Source: Longibacter salinarum | GTDB taxonomy: Bacteria; Bacteroidota; Rhodothermia; Rhodothermales; Salinibacteraceae | Direction: 5' to 3' | Assembly (NCBI RefSeq): GCF_002554795.1 | Contig: NZ_PDEQ01000009.1 | Coordinates: forward strand, 1-64,000 | Length of the DNA stretch: 64,000 nt | Shown: positions 27,367 to 40,534 of the stretch, piece by piece | How the letters are laid out: each line of letters opens with the position of its first letter | Position numbering within the stretch: the first letter of the stretch is position 1 | Translations under genes and position numbers: made by a program | Notes under the pieces: model-generated | Seen by the model: only the letters and a program-made list of their open reading frames with translations | What the model was told of the DNA's origin: nothing | Databases searched by the model: none

Positions 27367-29190
27367 ATGTCTGAATCTACGACACGTTCTGTACTTGGCA
27401 TCGCCCTGATGCCGCAAACCATTGAAGCCGTCCTCCTGCGCGTCGAAGAGGAGGAGCCCGTGATCGTCCGGCGCTTCGCCCGACCACGGCTTCGATCCGG
27501 CGAGCGCGCCATGGCGGAGGATTTCGCCACTTCTCTACCCGGCCTGAAATCGAGCGAGGACACAGACTTTACGCTCCAGGTCGGTTCAGGAGCCGGATCT
27601 CTGCAGGATGATCTCGACCTGGACCTGGACCCGAGCCTGCAAAGGATGGGTGGATCGGACGTAGCGTCCGGCGATGGCTCCCCCATGCAGGGCGAACGCT
27701 CGGGACCGCGTGTTTTTCCAGGGGCCCTGTCCGAAATCCTGAAGGAGTGCGAACACCTCGGCCACCCGAATCCGAAAATCATCTTCGTTGCCGGTCAACC
27801 GGATATTGCTCACGTCGAGATCTCGGGCGACCCGGAGACGATGGCGTCGTCGCAGAACTGGATGGACGCAGCTGTCAACTTCCTCCCATTTGGCGGAGAT
27901 AAGAGGGACTCGGGGCTGACCGCTGCCCTTCGCTCGGCATACGCGGGTCCACTTGACACGAAGCGCGTCGGTTTCCTGCCGATGACGCCGACAGAATCGG
28001 GGACTCCTCGCCACCTCGCGCTCATCCCCACGCCAAGCGACAGTGTGACGCCCACAGCAAATGTTGCGTTTGGACCGCAGAGCGACGTCAGCGGGTCGGT
28101 ATCCCGACTCGATGCCGAGATTACCCTGCACGTCGACACTGTGCAGCGCTACCTCGTCCCGGACGAGGACCATACAACGGCCCTCGTACGGGTCGGGTCG
28201 GAGGACACGCTCATTCTATTCATGAACGGACCGGACTTGCTCCATGTCGAGCAACCACGGTCGCTGACCTCGTACGACGCACCGGATACCATCGCATCGC
28301 GCGTCCTCCTCTACCAGGACGAGCAACAGATTGATGGGATTGACGCCGTCGTTCTTGTGGGTGGGACCAAGGACGACCGTCTTGTTCGAAGCTTCCGCAC
28401 GCTCTTTCCGGATGCAGCCGTCGGTCGTCTCCATGAGCTCCTCGTGGGCGAGCATGTGGCTGGCAACCCCGACATTCTGGCGATGCTCACCCCAGACTCC
28501 GGCATCGCCATTGCTGCAGGCCTTCGCCTGATCAAAGGTCCCGGCGACGACCTCAACCTCATCGGGGTCACGACGCGCCAGAAAAAGCGGACGATGCCCG
28601 TCTTTGCCTGGCACACGGTCCTCATGCTCCTCGCTCTTATCGGGGTTACGCTCTTCTTCGTTTCGTCCTACGTCAGTCAACGGAGCGAAATCTCCGAGCT
28701 TCGCAATCGCATTGAGGCAAACCCGGTCGCTCTTCCCGACATCTCCCCGGCCGATTTGCAGCAGCGTGTCGATAGCCTGAACGCCGTTCATGCTCAGTAT
28801 GCGCGCTCGCTGTACGTCCTGGACTCTCTTCTCGTCGGCAGCACCGAATGGAGCACGTCTATCGAGCGAACGGCCAACCAGACCGAAGCGATCGAGGGCA
28901 TCTGGTTCGAAGAATGGTCGATCAAGCCGAACGAGTTGACGATCCGCGGGAATGCGCTGGATCGTAACCGGGCCGCGACCTTCGCCCGCAACCTGGAAGG
29001 AGTCGTGCACGAGGTCGTCTACGCCGACATCGAAGATCGCCGTGTCTATCAATTTGAGATCACGATTCCGCGAATGACAGAGCTTCCGGAAGCAGCGCGC
29101 TATCTCCGAGAGCGAAATCTCGATTCAGACGCTGCTGAATCCATCGTATCGGCCAACACAATCGACGCGAGCGGACCCTCCACGCCGTAA
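27367..29190 (+). CDS. PilM-PilN fusion protein of the pilus alignment complex
   Basis: Canonical PilM is a cytosolic actin-like ring protein (about 350 aa) and PilN a bitopic membrane protein (about 180 aa). Here one 607-aa chain appears to do both. Residues 1-400 form an actin-like ASKHA region, with the end segment IDAVVLVGGTKDD and, near 385, DSGIAIAAGLRLI as in PilM. A single transmembrane helix lies near 411-435 (HTVLMLLALIGVTLFFVSSYV). A coiled-coil and small periplasmic alpha/beta domain follow (SEISELRNRIE, then TSIERTANQTEAIEGIWFEEW) as in PilN. The acidic, Ser-rich insert near 60-130 is unusual. It starts at ATG 27367, 53 bp after pilT, and the PilO-like gene follows after 40 bp. 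The fusion reading is inference from layout and position. Confidence 0.75.
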   Translation: MSESTTRSVLGIALMPQTIEAVLLRVEEEEPVIVRRFARPRLRSGERAMAEDFATSLPGLKSSEDTDFTLQVGSGAGSLQDDLDLDLDPSLQRMGGSDVASGDGSPMQGERSGPRVFPGALSEILKECEHLGHPNPKIIFVAGQPDIAHVEISGDPETMASSQNWMDAAVNFLPFGGDKRDSGLTAALRSAYAGPLDTKRVGFLPMTPTESGTPRHLALIPTPSDSVTPTANVAFGPQSDVSGSVSRLDAEITLHVDTVQRYLVPDEDHTTALVRVGSEDTLILFMNGPDLLHVEQPRSLTSYDAPDTIASRVLLYQDEQQIDGIDAVVLVGGTKDDRLVRSFRTLFPDAAVGRLHELLVGEHVAGNPDILAMLTPDSGIAIAAGLRLIKGPGDDLNLIGVTTRQKKRTMPVFAWHTVLMLLALIGVTLFFVSSYVSQRSEISELRNRIEANPVALPDISPADLQQRVDSLNAVHAQYARSLYVLDSLLVGSTEWSTSIERTANQTEAIEGIWFEEWSIKPNELTIRGNALDRNRAATFARNLEGVVHEVVYADIEDRRVYQFEITIPRMTELPEAARYLRERNLDSDAAESIVSANTIDASGPSTP

Positions 29191-29230
29191 CCCGCTGCCC
29201 CTTCGGCCCTGCTTCAACACCCGAGTTGCC

Positions 29231-30190
29231 ATGAAAACCTACCTCAACACACTCATCCTCTTCGTCGTCGCACTGGCCATATCCGGTGCCGGCTACTACG
29301 TCACCGAGGTGAATCAGCCCGCAACGCTGAAACACCTGCGGGATGTCGACCGCGTCGCTCGATTGCAGCATGCGCAGGTGGCTCAACTCCTCGCCGAAGC
29401 AGAGCAATCTTCCGACCGTGCCGACGCAACCGTCCGGAAGTGGAATTCGCGCTTTCGGTACGTACCGGCCGACCTCTCCACCCCCGACATCGTGGACTAC
29501 CTGGAAGAGCTCACGCCGAAGGGTTTCGAAGCGTTCGACGTACGCCTTGAAGACGTGCAGGAGAGCCCGGACGTCAACCACTATCGCTTCTCGATCGACG
29601 GGACCGGACAATACAAATCCCTCTACGAGTTCGTCTGGCAGATCGAAAATCGACCGGACTTCTACCGAATCCACGATTTAGAGATGTCACGGACCACCGT
29701 CTTTGAGGAATCGCGATCGAGTCGAGGCACCGAGATGGTGCAGTTCTCCATGACGCTTGACGCGTACTTCGGTGGGCTCGATGGGCTGAGCACTGATCGA
29801 GACCTTCTCGCAGACGTGCCGGAGGAAGCGAAACCCGCGGCGGAGCTTCCGCACAACTCGTTCTACCCGCTGGTTCGAGAGCGTCGCACGGTGAGCTCCT
29901 CGTCGAACAGTGGCCTCGTCGACGTGCGGCACGCAAGTCTCGTGTCGATCGCCGGATCCCGCGCCATTTTTCAGGACGGCAATTCCCAGTTCATCCTTTA
30001 CGAAGGCTCGTCCGTCGCCAATGGGACAATCGTTCGCATCGACCCGCTCAATGTCGTGGTTCGTGCCAGCCTGACGATTGACGGAAAAACCGAGATTATC
30101 GACATCGGCATGGATAGCACGCCGCCAAGCTACCGTCAGGCCGAGGGGGACAACCGCCTCGTGCCCGTCGAAACCGGCCAAAACCCATAA
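29231..30190 (+). CDS. PilO-like protein with PilP-like C-terminal domain
   Basis: A bitopic periplasmic protein of 319 aa: an N-terminal membrane helix (TLILFVVALAISGAGYYV), a coiled coil (about 30-70), then a PilO-type ferredoxin-like domain (about 75-180, with YKSLYEFVWQIENRPDFYRIHDLEM). A flexible linker (190-230) follows, then a small beta domain (about 235-300, with AIFQDGNSQFILYEGSSVANGTIVRID and GKTEIIDI) that resembles the PilP homology domain, which binds the secretin. The combination of PilO and PilP in one chain matches the PilMN fusion upstream and would give a two-protein alignment complex joined to the secretin encoded next. Separate pilN, pilO or pilP genes are not present in the window. 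Domain assignment in the last third is tentative. Confidence 0.7.
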   Translation: MKTYLNTLILFVVALAISGAGYYVTEVNQPATLKHLRDVDRVARLQHAQVAQLLAEAEQSSDRADATVRKWNSRFRYVPADLSTPDIVDYLEELTPKGFEAFDVRLEDVQESPDVNHYRFSIDGTGQYKSLYEFVWQIENRPDFYRIHDLEMSRTTVFEESRSSRGTEMVQFSMTLDAYFGGLDGLSTDRDLLADVPEEAKPAAELPHNSFYPLVRERRTVSSSSNSGLVDVRHASLVSIAGSRAIFQDGNSQFILYEGSSVANGTIVRIDPLNVVVRASLTIDGKTEIIDIGMDSTPPSYRQAEGDNRLVPVETGQNP

Positions 30191-30206
30191 CCTCTGATTC
30201 TGGATC

Positions 30207-30250
30207 GCCGCGAAGCATCCAGTGCACCTATCTCGCAGGTGCTTCGCGGC
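30207..30250 (+). terminator. Hairpin between pilO-like and secretin genes
   Basis: Perfect arms GCCGCGAAGCA (30207-30217) and TGCTTCGCGGC (30240-30250). GCACCT (30224-30229) can alternatively pair with AGGTGC (30237-30242), so two mutually exclusive folds exist. There is no T run. It may tune secretin expression rather than end transcription. Confidence 0.5.
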
Positions 30251-30288
30251 CTCCCATTAGTTCCCCCTCGCCCCTGACACTGATTGCC

Positions 30289-31671
30289 ATGACCTGCTCT
30301 CTCTCTTCTTCTCGGCTACAATTGACCGTGCGCGCCGCCGTTATCGTTCTTGTTCTTTCGTTTACGGTGCTTCCGGCGCTCACCCCGGCGTTCGCACAGG
30401 AACCCGACCGGCGCCAGCTCCGGACATACATCCCGCCGGAGCAACTCGTGTCGTTCCTGCCGACAACTCCGTTCGATCAGTTTATCGAGTTTCTGAATCC
30501 GCTGTTCGTCAACGTGACAGGCAAGCAGGTTATTGATCCTGAGTCCCGCACGGAACCCATCGGCGTAGCAATCACGCGAATGCAGTTCTTCGACGCATTC
30601 GAACTTGCTCTGGAGGCGCAGGGTCTCAGCTACCGCGAGACGGAACGCTACTTCATCATCCAGGAAGCGCAGATACCGGAGGATCCTTCGATGATTGCAG
30701 GAGGACGTGAGCGAACACCTGTGAAGGCATCCGATCCCCTGCCGGCCACACTCGAAACCCAGGAGGTCGAAATTAGCGCGCTTCTGTTTGAGGTCAACCT
30801 GTCCCGTGTTCGCGAGCTCGGACTGGACTGGAGCGTGTTTCTTGCACAGGAGCAGGGCGGACAGCAAGGCGGACAACAGGGTGGACAGCAGGGCCCAAGA
30901 TTCCAGCTCAAACCGAAGAATCTGGGTGGCGCGATCGGGGAGTTCTTTCGGCAAGATGAGTTGGGCACGCCCGACGAAATCGACTTTGGCGACCTCGCCC
31001 GTTTCTTCCGCGCGCTGGAGGACGACGGTGTGGGCCGAACCCTGGCACAACCGTCCGTTTCTGTGCAGAGTCGCGAGCAGGGGCGGATCCAGATTGGATC
31101 CGACATTCCGATCCAGGTGCGGGACTTCGCCGGCAACACGATTACCCAGTTTATCTCCACCGGAATCATCGTGGATGTCACGCCGACCCACATCTCACAG
31201 GCTGTCGCTGATACAGTGGGCGCACCGAAGCTCGACTTCGTTCACCTCGATGTGAATGTAGAGCGATCCAGCGGCCGCCCATTCGGATCGAGCGTCGCCG
31301 TCGACCGAAACACAGCGGACACGCAGGTTCTCCTGCTGGACGGCGAGCAAACGATTATCGGAGGGCTGTACTCTTCGGACGTGACAACGTCGCGCCGCGG
31401 CATTCCGATTCTGAAGGATCTTCCGCCGTGGGTGTTTGGTCTCCGCTACATCTTCGGACGCGAGCAGAAGACCATCGCCCGCCGCGAGCTGGTGATCGTC
31501 CTCCAGGCTGAAGTCGCAGAGCCGATTCCGAGCCGTGCCCGGAAGTCGCTGCCGGATCAGCTGCTCGAGAAGCGTCGGAAGGAAGTCGAAGAGCGGATTC
31601 GTCGCTTCGACTCGGACGTGACCCGCAGCCTTGGTCCAGACGCGGTTCTGGAGAAAAAGGTTGACGACTGA
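30289..31671 (+). CDS. pilQ: Type IV pilus secretin (PilQ-like)
   Basis: An outer-membrane ring-forming secretin (460 aa) through which the pilus exits. Signal peptide at about 13-36 (AAVIVLVLSFTVLPALTPAFA). An STN/N-type domain follows (about 45-125: FDQFIEFLNPLFVNVTGKQVI). The secretin domain begins with LETQEVEISALLFEVNLSRVRELGLDW. It carries the conserved GRTLAQPSVSVQSREQGRIQIGSDIPIQ segment and the signature DGEQTIIGGLYSSD followed by GIPILKDLPPWVFGLRYIFG. It is short for PilQ and lacks AMIN domains. A GGQQGGQQGGQQG linker sits near residues 187-200. The C-terminal basic/acidic helix (RKSLPDQLLEKRRKEVEERIRR) may be an S-domain-like tail. Last gene of the pilus run. Confidence 0.9.
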   Translation: MTCSLSSSRLQLTVRAAVIVLVLSFTVLPALTPAFAQEPDRRQLRTYIPPEQLVSFLPTTPFDQFIEFLNPLFVNVTGKQVIDPESRTEPIGVAITRMQFFDAFELALEAQGLSYRETERYFIIQEAQIPEDPSMIAGGRERTPVKASDPLPATLETQEVEISALLFEVNLSRVRELGLDWSVFLAQEQGGQQGGQQGGQQGPRFQLKPKNLGGAIGEFFRQDELGTPDEIDFGDLARFFRALEDDGVGRTLAQPSVSVQSREQGRIQIGSDIPIQVRDFAGNTITQFISTGIIVDVTPTHISQAVADTVGAPKLDFVHLDVNVERSSGRPFGSSVAVDRNTADTQVLLLDGEQTIIGGLYSSDVTTSRRGIPILKDLPPWVFGLRYIFGREQKTIARRELVIVLQAEVAEPIPSRARKSLPDQLLEKRRKEVEERIRRFDSDVTRSLGPDAVLEKKVDD

Positions 31672-31844: not shown

Positions 31845-32717
31845 ATGACGCGCGTTCCCTCGCTGACCCGAGCGCGGCCGCTTCGAACGGCCCGGCCGGT
31901 GTCCGGCGAACTCATTCTGGGCGTCCTCACGGTGCACACGGTGCTGCTCGCGCTGTTCTATTCGCCAGCGTTTCAGGTGCTCGTGAGCCGGCCCTTCGCG
32001 AAAGCAACAGACGGAATTGCCACACACGTCCTCGTAACGAATCTGCTGGAGTTCGCGATTCTGATCGCTGGATGCATGATCGTGGTTGGCGGAATGCGCC
32101 TGAGAGATGTGGGCATCCGAAGGCGCGGATGGGTGACAGCGGTCCTTGCGACGCTCAGTCTGTGGGGACTGACACAGCTCGTGATGCATGGGCTGGCCGA
32201 ACTGACGGACGTGCCTGCATCTCTGAATCCTGTGTGGATGTACCCGATGGCGTCAGCGGAAATCGGCCGCCCCCTCCCAGGCGTACTCGTCGCTGCCGCT
32301 GTCGAGGAGGTCATGTATCGCGGATTCCTTCTTCCGCAACTCTTTCATCTGACACAGCGATGGGGCACGCAGCGCCTCACGTACGCCCTCGTGATGTCTC
32401 AGGTGTTGTTTGGAATCAACCACGTGCCGGCCGGTGTCGTGATGGGGTTATCGCCATTCGAGATCGGCTCCTATGTCGTGCTCGCTGCACTCGTCGGTGT
32501 ATTCCTCGCCGTCCTCTACCTCCGCACCGACAACCTCTGGCTCGTCATTGGCTTTCACGCCGTTCTGAACCAGCCGCTGTCGTTCTATCTCAGCCCGCTC
32601 GACCCCTCGCTGGTCGTGCTCATACTGGGGCTTCTTCTGACCCTTGCGATCCCGTTTCTACGCCAGATTGCACCCTCGTCTACTCCCTCCGCGCCCACGA
32701 CGCCTTCCGCGCCGTGA
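31845..32717 (+). CDS. CPBP family intramembrane metalloprotease
   Basis: A polytopic protease (290 aa) of the CPBP/Rce1/abortive-infection type, with about seven hydrophobic helices. The three active-site motifs are intact: EEVMYRG (Glu-Glu and Arg), FGINH (His) and a last motif around GFHAVLNQ (His). Relatives process CAAX-like or bacteriocin-related substrates, often unknown. ATG at 31845 starts the hydrophobic region; an overlapping frame open on the same strand is a shadow. The gene lies between the secretin gene and the PKD/SPOR membrane-protein gene, with only 30 bp to the latter, so it may share its transcript. The natural substrate is unknown; a pilus component or the downstream membrane protein is an option suggested only by position. 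Confidence 0.85.
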   Translation: MTRVPSLTRARPLRTARPVSGELILGVLTVHTVLLALFYSPAFQVLVSRPFAKATDGIATHVLVTNLLEFAILIAGCMIVVGGMRLRDVGIRRRGWVTAVLATLSLWGLTQLVMHGLAELTDVPASLNPVWMYPMASAEIGRPLPGVLVAAAVEEVMYRGFLLPQLFHLTQRWGTQRLTYALVMSQVLFGINHVPAGVVMGLSPFEIGSYVVLAALVGVFLAVLYLRTDNLWLVIGFHAVLNQPLSFYLSPLDPSLVVLILGLLLTLAIPFLRQIAPSSTPSAPTTPSAP

Positions 32718-32747: not shown

Positions 32748-33989
32748 ATGAAACGACTTGTTTATTTGCTCCTCGCGATTCTCGTGACTGCCGGGCTTAA
32801 CTTTTCGGCAGCACAGGCTCAGGATGCACACGCCGTTCAGCTACTTGAGCTCCATGGCCCGCGAACACTCTTCGACGGGGCCGTCGCAAACTACCGGGCA
32901 CGGGTGTCCGAGGGGTCAACACGCCCGATCGGCTTCCTGTGGGACTTTGGGGATGGCATCGCATCGGAAGGCAGTCCGGTCGCACATCGGTACATGATCC
33001 CGGGGACATACACAGTCACCGTCATAGCCTACAACGCCGGGGGACGTGACTCGATGACGACGACGGTCACCGTATCGCAACGCCCCGACGTAACAGCGTC
33101 CACCAATCTACCCGACGTGCGTACCCGACGGCCAGAAAGGACCGTGACTGAACCGGCGACTTCGAGACAGACGTCCACCCCGCGCATCTCTCGACGTGAT
33201 GTTCGACGTGCGCTGTTCAGTAATGACCCGATCACACCGACCGCGGACGGCTACACGTGGATTCTCGCCTCTGATCTGTGGAACGAGCGCCTCAACCGCA
33301 AGCGATTGCAATACCGACTTCAGGGTCTCCGGGTTGAGGTCATCGCCGATTCAACCGGACGCGGAAGCACTGCATACCGCCTCATTGCCGGTCACTTTAA
33401 GACGATCGGCGAGGCTCTCATTGCTCGATCGATGCTGGAGAAAACGGATACGCACCTACAGCTGCACGCCTTTGCCCCAAACGGGCTGCAACTCGCCGTC
33501 GCCCAGTTCGCGGATGCACTCGATCAACTTAGCCCTGCCGAACGGGCAGGTCTCGATGTGCGCTCGATAATGGATACCATGATCGCGGAGAAAACAGAGC
33601 CGGCTGCCGCAGACCGGGGCGACCAAGAACTTGGGGAGGCGACATCCCCCGTAGCTACGACATCATCTGACATGGAGGCATCCACGCCTGCACCAGCTGT
33701 CACGCAGCCGTCTTGGTGGACGCTCGAACATTGGGAATTTCCGGTCTGGGTCTGGTTTCTCGGAGGAATCGTTGTCGCGTCCGGGTTGAGTACGATCGTT
33801 TTGATACTGTATGGTCGACGGTCGGCCCGCCATCCCATACCTCAACCTCAGGCGGCAAAAAAAGCCGCGCCGCCGACCGGTCTCCGGATCGATCGGCGGC
33901 CGCTTCACATGCTAGCATCGATGCTCCACAGGCTGCCGCACCTGAATCCATACCAGACGATGCACCAATCAGCGACGAGCGGGATCTAG
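32748..33989 (+). CDS. PKD and SPOR-like envelope membrane protein (0-frame product)
   Basis: A 413-aa protein: signal peptide (RLVYLLLAILVTAGLNFSAAQAQ), PKD domain (about 30-105, with FLWDFGDG and GTYTVTVIAYNAGG), a linker and a SPOR-like domain (about 165-240, with RLIAGHFKTIGEALIARSMLEK). A transmembrane helix follows near 335-355 (VWVWFLGGIVVASGLSTIVLILYG). In the 0 frame only 54 residues come after the helix; they are basic and His-rich, unlike natural cytosolic tails of this genome. At residues 370-372 the frame crosses a seven-A run, and the -1 frame from there stays open for 141 acidic codons (to 34288). So either -1 frameshifting makes two products (413 and about 513 aa), or the gene carries a frameshift mutation or sequencing error. 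ATG at 32748 is used; ATG at 32724 is also possible. Confidence 0.75.
   Translation: MKRLVYLLLAILVTAGLNFSAAQAQDAHAVQLLELHGPRTLFDGAVANYRARVSEGSTRPIGFLWDFGDGIASEGSPVAHRYMIPGTYTVTVIAYNAGGRDSMTTTVTVSQRPDVTASTNLPDVRTRRPERTVTEPATSRQTSTPRISRRDVRRALFSNDPITPTADGYTWILASDLWNERLNRKRLQYRLQGLRVEVIADSTGRGSTAYRLIAGHFKTIGEALIARSMLEKTDTHLQLHAFAPNGLQLAVAQFADALDQLSPAERAGLDVRSIMDTMIAEKTEPAAADRGDQELGEATSPVATTSSDMEASTPAPAVTQPSWWTLEHWEFPVWVWFLGGIVVASGLSTIVLILYGRRSARHPIPQPQAAKKAAPPTGLRIDRRPLHMLASMLHRLPHLNPYQTMHQSATSGI
33857..33900 (+). promoter_or_regulatory. Candidate -1 programmed frameshift signal
   Basis: The seven A residues (33857-33863) are phased A AAA AAA in the reading frame, the X XXY YYZ arrangement used by dnaX-type slippage. 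After a 5-nt spacer a perfect 8-bp stem starts: GCCGCCGA (33869-33876) with TCGGCGGC (33893-33900). An inner CCGG/CCGG hairpin (877-880/884-887) lies within it. Slippage would continue into the acidic tail. Transcriptional slippage adding one A would give the same product. Confidence 0.6.
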
Positions 33990-34288
33990 AAGAATCGCCG
34001 ACCAATCCACCTTCTCTCACATCGGGCCGAGACGACGCTGATTCCGAAGCGAGTCACGCCGTCTTGGAATGGCCCGATGATAAAGATGAAGACGCACCCT
34101 CTCTTCCCATCGAAGCGTTTCACATCGTCGCCCCGAAGGAGGACGGACCACCCCCGTCCTATTGGCCACATCCATCGACATGGAGTGTACCCGGATCTAA
34201 ATGGGACGACCTCAATGAATCCGATTCGCCTCCAGATCCCCGCCGCGATCCCGGCCCAGACGACGAAACGGGAAGGCACTCGACCTGA
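33863..34288 (+). CDS. -1 frame extension encoding an acidic cytosolic tail
   Basis: Read in the -1 frame after the A run, the sequence codes for 141 residues to a TGA at 34286-34288. The composition is strongly acidic with many Asp, Glu, Pro and Ser (for example DERDLEESP and EWPDDKDEDAPS) and matches other proteins of the window. The 0-frame alternative is arginine- and histidine-rich and stops early. This is therefore the more natural continuation of the PKD/SPOR protein, placing a long acidic tail on the cytosolic side of its membrane helix. Nothing in the tail matches a family I know. If the A run were a sequencing error, this would simply be the C-terminus of one 513-aa protein. Confidence 0.55.
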   Translation, partial: SRAADRSPDRSAAASHASIDAPQAAAPESIPDDAPISDERDLEESPTNPPSLTSGRDDADSEASHAVLEWPDDKDEDAPSLPIEAFHIVAPKEDGPPPSYWPHPSTWSVPGSKWDDLNESDSPPDPRRDPGPDDETGRHST

Positions 34289-34435: not shown

Positions 34436-34627
34436 ATGTCTGAGACTGCATCTGATCCGTTTGCCCTGAGTGACGAAGAACTGCTCGAGGAGATTGAACA
34501 GCTCGACCGAAGAGGGGCGAACACGGAAACCATCGTCGAAACGCTCGAAATTCGGTATGGTCGCCACCGGGTCGGCCGACACCAACTGGTGAGCGCGATT
34601 CAGCGGCTCATCCATCGAGAGAATTGA
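34436..34627 (+). CDS. Small acidic protein, paralog 1
   Basis: A 63-aa protein unknown to me. After four residues it shares SDPFxLSDEELL with a second small gene 170 bp downstream; by hand alignment 30 of 56 positions are identical. Two helices are likely (SDEELLEEIEQLDRRG and ETIVETLEIRYG) followed by a third (HQLVSAIQRLIHR), a size and pattern that could fit a small helix-turn-helix or protein-protein adaptor. The upstream DNA is AT-rich with TATAAT-like sequences (TTATAATA near 34325). ATG at 34436 was chosen because the shared part starts there; a frame opening at 34409 adds nine residues not matched in the paralog. Conservation between the two copies supports real coding. Confidence 0.7.
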   Translation: MSETASDPFALSDEELLEEIEQLDRRGANTETIVETLEIRYGRHRVGRHQLVSAIQRLIHREN

Positions 34628-40138: not shown

Positions 40139-40534
40139 AACAGAGACCTGCCGGGAACGAGGATTGGTGACGGATCGGGAATGATACTAGAGACGGGTAC
40201 AGCGCGGCTTCTTAATCCACACCCCGTAGACATCACGGTACACCCGCCAAGATACAACTCGACGTTGCAATAAAAAAACCATTTTAATGACGCAATGTAG
40301 TCAATACACAGTGCTTCATTCCTTTGACCACGATGCTACTGGCACGTAAAAGGCATAGCGCGCGACGACTCGGAGTGGTACTCTCGTGCTGAACTCGTTT
40401 CTCCACCGGCGCCCCCTTATCTTTGTTTTGACGAATCGAGCTTGCGGTTCCCCCGTCGATCGCCCCGTACCGTGACGGCACGAACGAAGTCTCGGAGCTT
40501 TATCCCCTTCTGCTCTCTCCAGATGTACGCAGTT
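40139..40534. other. Intergenic region between divergent lipoprotein genes
   Basis: About 395 bp without a recognisable gene. It contains AT-rich stretches (around 40260-40290) that could hold divergent promoters; no clear motif was found. Confidence 0.5.

Follow-up and report, generated by a model that had tools for sequence, protein, structure and literature searches.

A probable programmed -1 ribosomal frameshift at an A7 run in the gene of a membrane-anchored envelope protein of Longibacter salinarum

Apart from dnaX, copA, cso2 and mobile elements, ordinary chromosomal genes of bacteria offer, to our knowledge, few well-supported cases of -1 frameshifting. In E. coli, dnaX encodes the gamma and tau forms through a -1 shift at an A-run heptamer, A_AAA_AAG, with a hairpin just 3' of it and a quick stop. 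A_AAA_AAG is a stronger motif than A_AAA_AAA in E. coli. The -1 signals of IS transposase genes combine A_AAA_AAA or A_AAA_AAG with a stem-loop to give a longer fusion protein; in the published rules the hairpin starts 4-10 nt after the motif, and A_AAA_AAA is among the motifs proven for an IS cluster (PMC4066793). The carboxysome gene cso2 is a cellular gene in which a frameshift with a 3' stem loop, and with no 5' Shine-Dalgarno stimulator, gives two C termini (PMC5009743).

We found a comparable arrangement in the window, i.e. the whole 64-kb stretch of L. salinarum DNA analyzed here, and consider it probable, at roughly 0.78, that programmed -1 ribosomal frameshifting at A_AAA_AAA joins two overlapping frames of a membrane-anchored envelope protein (Table 1). 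The comparison within the genus covers two genomes, the source genome and G001 (MAG GSL.Bin3, a low-coverage MAG with cov 3.08). The locus shares with dnaX the heptamer in equal phase, the position of the hairpin and the direction of the shift, and differs from it in the heptamer itself (A_AAA_AAA), in a long conserved tail in place of the quick stop, and in having neither a conserved Shine-Dalgarno-like stimulator nor an Rfam match. A GGCGG directly 5' of the A run in the window is missing in G001, so that this optional upstream element is not conserved between the two, and an Rfam search of positions 33700-34100, up to an E value of 10, gave no match to the dnaX frameshift element. The weaker heptamer and the missing conserved upstream stimulator count against frameshifting, as does the lack of an in-frame stop soon after the site that would give a neat short product, unlike in dnaX. 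The IS transposase signals have the heptamer, the hairpin distance and the longer fusion in common with the locus, which is, however, a chromosomal envelope gene without transposase domains. The likeness to cso2 extends to the cellular gene, the 3' stem loop, the two C termini and the missing 5' stimulator, whereas the protein and its compartment are unrelated, the present product being a membrane protein. On these sequence criteria the locus would belong to the bacterial -1 ribosomal frameshift cassettes, as a new gene family and not a new kind. The dnaX genes of both genomes appeared as one long frame, as judged by open-frame length (741 and 758 aa), and no A7 was seen on reading the copy of the source genome; there is thus no local precedent. 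In the literature on Salinibacter and frameshifting, we found no paper on the 32748-33989 gene.

Table 1. Features of the frameshift gene (positions in the window).
Feature	Position	Strand	Remarks
0-frame ORF, 413 aa	32748..33989	+	ATG 32748, stop TAG 33987-33989
PKD domain, residues 36-109	32853..33074	+	Pfam PF18911, E 2.7e-13, above cut-off
SPOR-like domain, residues 187-231	33306..33440	+	Pfam PF05036, 15.2 bits against a cut-off of 21 bits
Predicted transmembrane helix, about residues 333-355, followed by GRRSAR	33744..33812	+	From the sequence; conserved in G001
Slippery heptamer A_AAA_AAA, putative shift site	33857..33863	+	Identical and in equal phase in G001 (L003:2565-2571)
-1 frame tail, 141 codons + TGA (34286-34288)	33863..34288	+	Acidic, Pro/Ser-rich; 51% identity with the G001 tail
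0-frame tail beyond the shift site, 41 aa + stop	33864..33989	+	Probable side effect of coding in the -1 frame
Putative stimulatory hairpin	33869..33900	+	Outer stem 33869-33876/33893-33900
Hairpin interior	33878-33882/33887-33891 (inner stem, 5 bp); 33883-33886 (UCCG loop)	+	From the fold
Conserved motif near the C terminus of the tail	34070..34216	+	WPDD...AP.LPI.AFH.V.P....PP..WPHPSTW.VPG..WDDLN (window/G001 alignments)

The 0-frame ORF consists of a signal-peptide-like N terminus, the PKD domain, the SPOR-like domain and the transmembrane helix, followed by the A7 run and the out-of-frame tail, and its residues 1-372 show 59% identity with the G001 orthologue. The preliminary description had called the product a PKD/SPOR membrane protein with forms of 413 and about 513 aa, diverging just after a membrane helix. 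The sizes (413 aa for the ORF and 513 aa for the fusion), the position of the A7 run behind the predicted helix and the PKD assignment held. The SPOR assignment is tentative, the domain being under the 21-bit cut-off in the window and in the G001 orthologue (17.3 bits) and above it in family- and order-level homologues (L004, 25.2; L008, 29.9; L009, 26.7 bits). An AlphaFold model of the 0-frame part, which was used solely for the position of the membrane helix, placed a helix at residues 333-360 and was otherwise of low confidence (mean pLDDT 37).

The phased A7 run, the 5-nt spacer, the perfect 8-bp stem and the inner hairpin that had been read from the sequence beforehand were all confirmed. 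There are exactly seven A's, the first occupying a third codon position (GCA AAA AAA GCC), and they form an X_XXZ_ZZN heptamer in the correct phase here and in G001. Runs of at least seven A or T number two within the 64-kb window; the second, at 40272-40278 (+), lies in A+T-rich surroundings and is not followed by a G+C-rich hairpin. In G001, the run reads CCA AAA AAA GCG, the preceding codon being CCA as compared with GCA in the window, and A7 is kept although third positions differ at about 67% of sites elsewhere. The fused proteins of the two species are 57% identical and the GC content of the locus is 65% in G001 versus 60% for the window, indicating that G001 is not a near-copy.

The gene might truly be one frame, broken by an error of sequencing or assembly in the A run; in favor of this are the proneness of homopolymers to error in some technologies and the low coverage of one of the two genomes. 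Two independent genomes would, however, need to share the error at one codon, in a run of just 7, and with a heptamer-phased hairpin directly downstream in both. Since the slippery site, the hairpin and the split frame recur in G001, the locus does not appear to be a sequencing error or a dead gene; an artefact is therefore very improbable, and decay to a pseudogene is unlikely. The relatives were searched for a single unbroken frame, which had been named beforehand as a refuting finding, and none carries one; the family-level G018/G019 orthologues lack the helix and the tail altogether. Conservation of the site and the structure was thus seen in two species. That there are only two, one of them a low-coverage MAG, counts against the frameshifting reading.

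The A7 run is followed by GCCGC and then by GCCGCCGA-C-CGGUC-UCCG-GAUCG-A-UCGGCGGC. The outer 8-bp stem, with seven G-C/C-G pairs and one A-U pair, encloses a C/A mismatch and then CGGUC(UCCG)GAUCG; its 5-nt spacer falls within the 4-10 nt expected 3' of a heptamer. The 54 nt from the A run onward fold with -29.1 kcal/mol (z -4.8), none of 200 shuffles being as good, and a fold as good as that of the hairpin is reached by only about 0.1% of 38-nt stretches across the window. The equivalent fold in G001 reaches -38.0 kcal/mol (z -5.3) with the same topology. Its tip, CGGUC-UCCG-GAYCG, is kept and its outer stem is partly different; the homologous stem is spaced as in the window, with further pairs possible closer to the run. 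Among random synonymous recodings of the -1 peptide, 69 of 2000 for the window and 18 of 2000 for G001 reached the observed stability, suggesting that part of the folding comes from the encoded peptide RAADRSPDRSAAA itself. The actual hairpin sequences are more stable than the -1 peptide predicts in both species. Hairpin sequence and peptide are partly confounded nevertheless, and this counts against the frameshifting reading. The exact hairpin pattern had no match in viral contigs.

The main mechanistic rival is transcriptional slippage at the A7 run, in which RNA polymerase would add one A (or drop two) and a subset of the mRNA would encode the fusion. The site is a homopolymer and the frame logic is identical; cases of this type are described for runs of about nine A/T (PMC5009743), and certain bacteria may show slippage on shorter ones (PMC1088944). 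Seven A's are short, however, as polymerase realignment is cited for A runs above 7 (PMC3711429) and nine is the usual run length where selection on slippage is seen (PMC1088944). The known stimulating hairpin for polymerase slippage forms in the nascent RNA 5' of the site (PMC5009743), whereas here it is the 3' side that carries the strong hairpin, folding on the 5' side being weak (about -7 kcal/mol over 40 nt). Neither a run of about 8-9 or more A/T nor a 5' nascent hairpin was found. The phase of the heptamer, its 5-nt distance from a 3' hairpin and the shortness of the run (seven A's) favor the ribosome over the polymerase, and we regard transcriptional slippage as improbable.

The strongest single evidence for the frameshift, which is independent of motif recognition, is the pattern of substitutions between the window and G001, which switches frame at the run. 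Before A7, changes at the first, second and third 0-frame codon positions amounted to 112/70/242 in 360 codons; past A7, those by -1-frame position amounted to 45/39/83 in 134 codons, with 83 of 167 at third positions. The reverse readings agree: in the 0 frame of the first 41 codons past A7 (16/24/14) the second position, which is the -1 wobble, changes most, and in the -1 frame of the 60 codons preceding A7 (41/26/23) it is the first position, the 0-frame wobble. By break-point likelihood, the switch lies at 33843-33877 (within 2 log units of the best), and the break-point model is better than a model of all 0 frame by 17.7 and of all -1 frame by 26.4 log units. The downstream ORF in the -1 frame is thus under purifying selection. 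Its 141 codons and acidic character, previously noted, were confirmed (net charge -22), and the two tails align with an E value of 3e-11. The G001 tail likewise lies in the -1 frame and carries WPHPSTW-VPG--WDDLN near its end. Among 114 genomes of the order, the motif is confined to this genus; the tail had no match in the 112 other genomes of the order, no third species with it emerged from genus-, family- and order-level searches, and a scan of contigs with the fused-protein alignment returned GSL.Bin3 as the sole match.

The tail might instead be a protein of its own, encoded by an independent gene that overlaps in the -1 frame or produced by stop-coupled reinitiation, and TTG/GTG codons are indeed present at 33713-33731 in the -1 frame of the window. 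In G001, however, ATG, GTG and TTG codons are absent from the -1 frame between the upstream stop (L003:2340) and position 2829, which is already far into the tail, and the -1 stop (3054) precedes the 0-frame stop (3280). Neither own initiation nor coupled reinitiation can therefore yield the full conserved tail in that genome. Nor does the -1 frame show coding constraint upstream of A7. Independent initiation of the tail is accordingly hardly credible.

The 0-frame tail gives a different picture. It ends in a basic stretch as had been described (41 aa and a stop after KK), and this basic character is an accident of the frame. The tail measures 41 aa in the window as compared with 236 aa in G001, the first 41 codons being 29% identical, and the frequency of stop codons in it is about that of chance given the -1 protein. 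The long open 0 frame in G001 was not significant as a sign of selection (P 0.06). Of the two alternative tails proposed in the preliminary description, the frameshift into the -1 tail stands; the idea of a designed pair does not hold, because the 0-frame tail is unconserved and its stops are at chance level. What holds instead is a protein body that either carries the -1 tail or lacks it, and it is the -1 tail that selection keeps. A further possibility, compatible with either mechanism, is that an ancestral indel became fixed and is tolerated through leaky slippage, i.e. corrective frameshifting, cases of which have been described (PMC5009743), and that the arrangement is not a two-form device. 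The unconserved 0-frame tail, which is long in G001 and leaves the non-shifted product without a tidy end, is consistent with this. The 3' hairpin, on the other hand, looks like a stimulator kept in both species, and, ever since the species diverged, a one-base change of the run would have been enough to restore the frame; we consider the corrective origin a less likely but serious alternative.

Upstream of the gene, at 27367-31671 (+), lie type IV pilus-type genes for a PilN-domain protein, a PilO-like ORF (no Pfam hit) and a secretin, and at 31845-32717 (+), between the secretin and the frameshift gene, a gene for a CPBP/Rce1-like protease-family membrane protein. The neighborhood in G001 matches (PilN/PilO-like pilus-type genes, secretin, CPBP protease-like gene, then the frameshift gene), with identical order of the pilus-type genes and a secretin 80% identical. 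A 63-aa ORF (MSETASDPFALSDEELLEEIEQLDRRG...) follows at 34436-34627 (+) and is conserved downstream in G001 (SDPFSLSDEELLEEI...), where the long 0 frame reaches into the start of its counterpart. The G018/G019 orthologues, at 42% identity, lie directly downstream of the pilus secretin and stop right after SPOR; no CPBP/Rce1-like gene was matched around their secretin genes in the stretch examined. PKD/SPOR envelope proteins of the order (e.g. L004, L006, L008) have the same order of PKD and SPOR, and differ in being encoded in a single frame. Across the genomes examined, both the helix and the tail look like gains of this genus. Perhaps the envelope protein is linked to the pilus, as its gene neighborhood suggests.

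Comparison of the two species shows the site, its phase, the hairpin and the splitting of the frame, and that the -1 tail is under selection; that the shift occurs in translation and not in transcription, its efficiency, the membrane topology and a docking role of the tail are what we infer. In programmed ribosomal frameshifting at this site, frame 0 would be read first, through the signal peptide, the PKD and SPOR-like domains and the membrane helix. When the two AAA codons of A_AAA_AAA occupy its P and A sites, the ribosome would meet the hairpin 5 nt downstream and pause, and a fraction of ribosomes would slip back one base (GCA AAA AAA | AGC CGC). These would add a cytosolic tail that is acidic, probably disordered and closed by the conserved W/P-rich motif. 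Non-slipping ribosomes would give the anchored body a basic tail, short or long, showing no visible selection. A cytosolic partner, perhaps among the neighboring type IV pilus proteins, may dock on the acidic tail. We suggest tentatively that the frameshift might set the share of envelope molecules carrying a cytosolic docking tail, and that membrane insertion or growth state could in this way tune the coupling between the wall (SPOR/PKD) and a partner such as the pilus machinery. This frameshift, which has support from the comparison of species, would provide a membrane protein with a cytosolic tail; standard gene calling would overlook such a tail or mark the gene as frameshifted. The gene offers a testable case in which frameshifting may decide whether an envelope protein has an inner domain.
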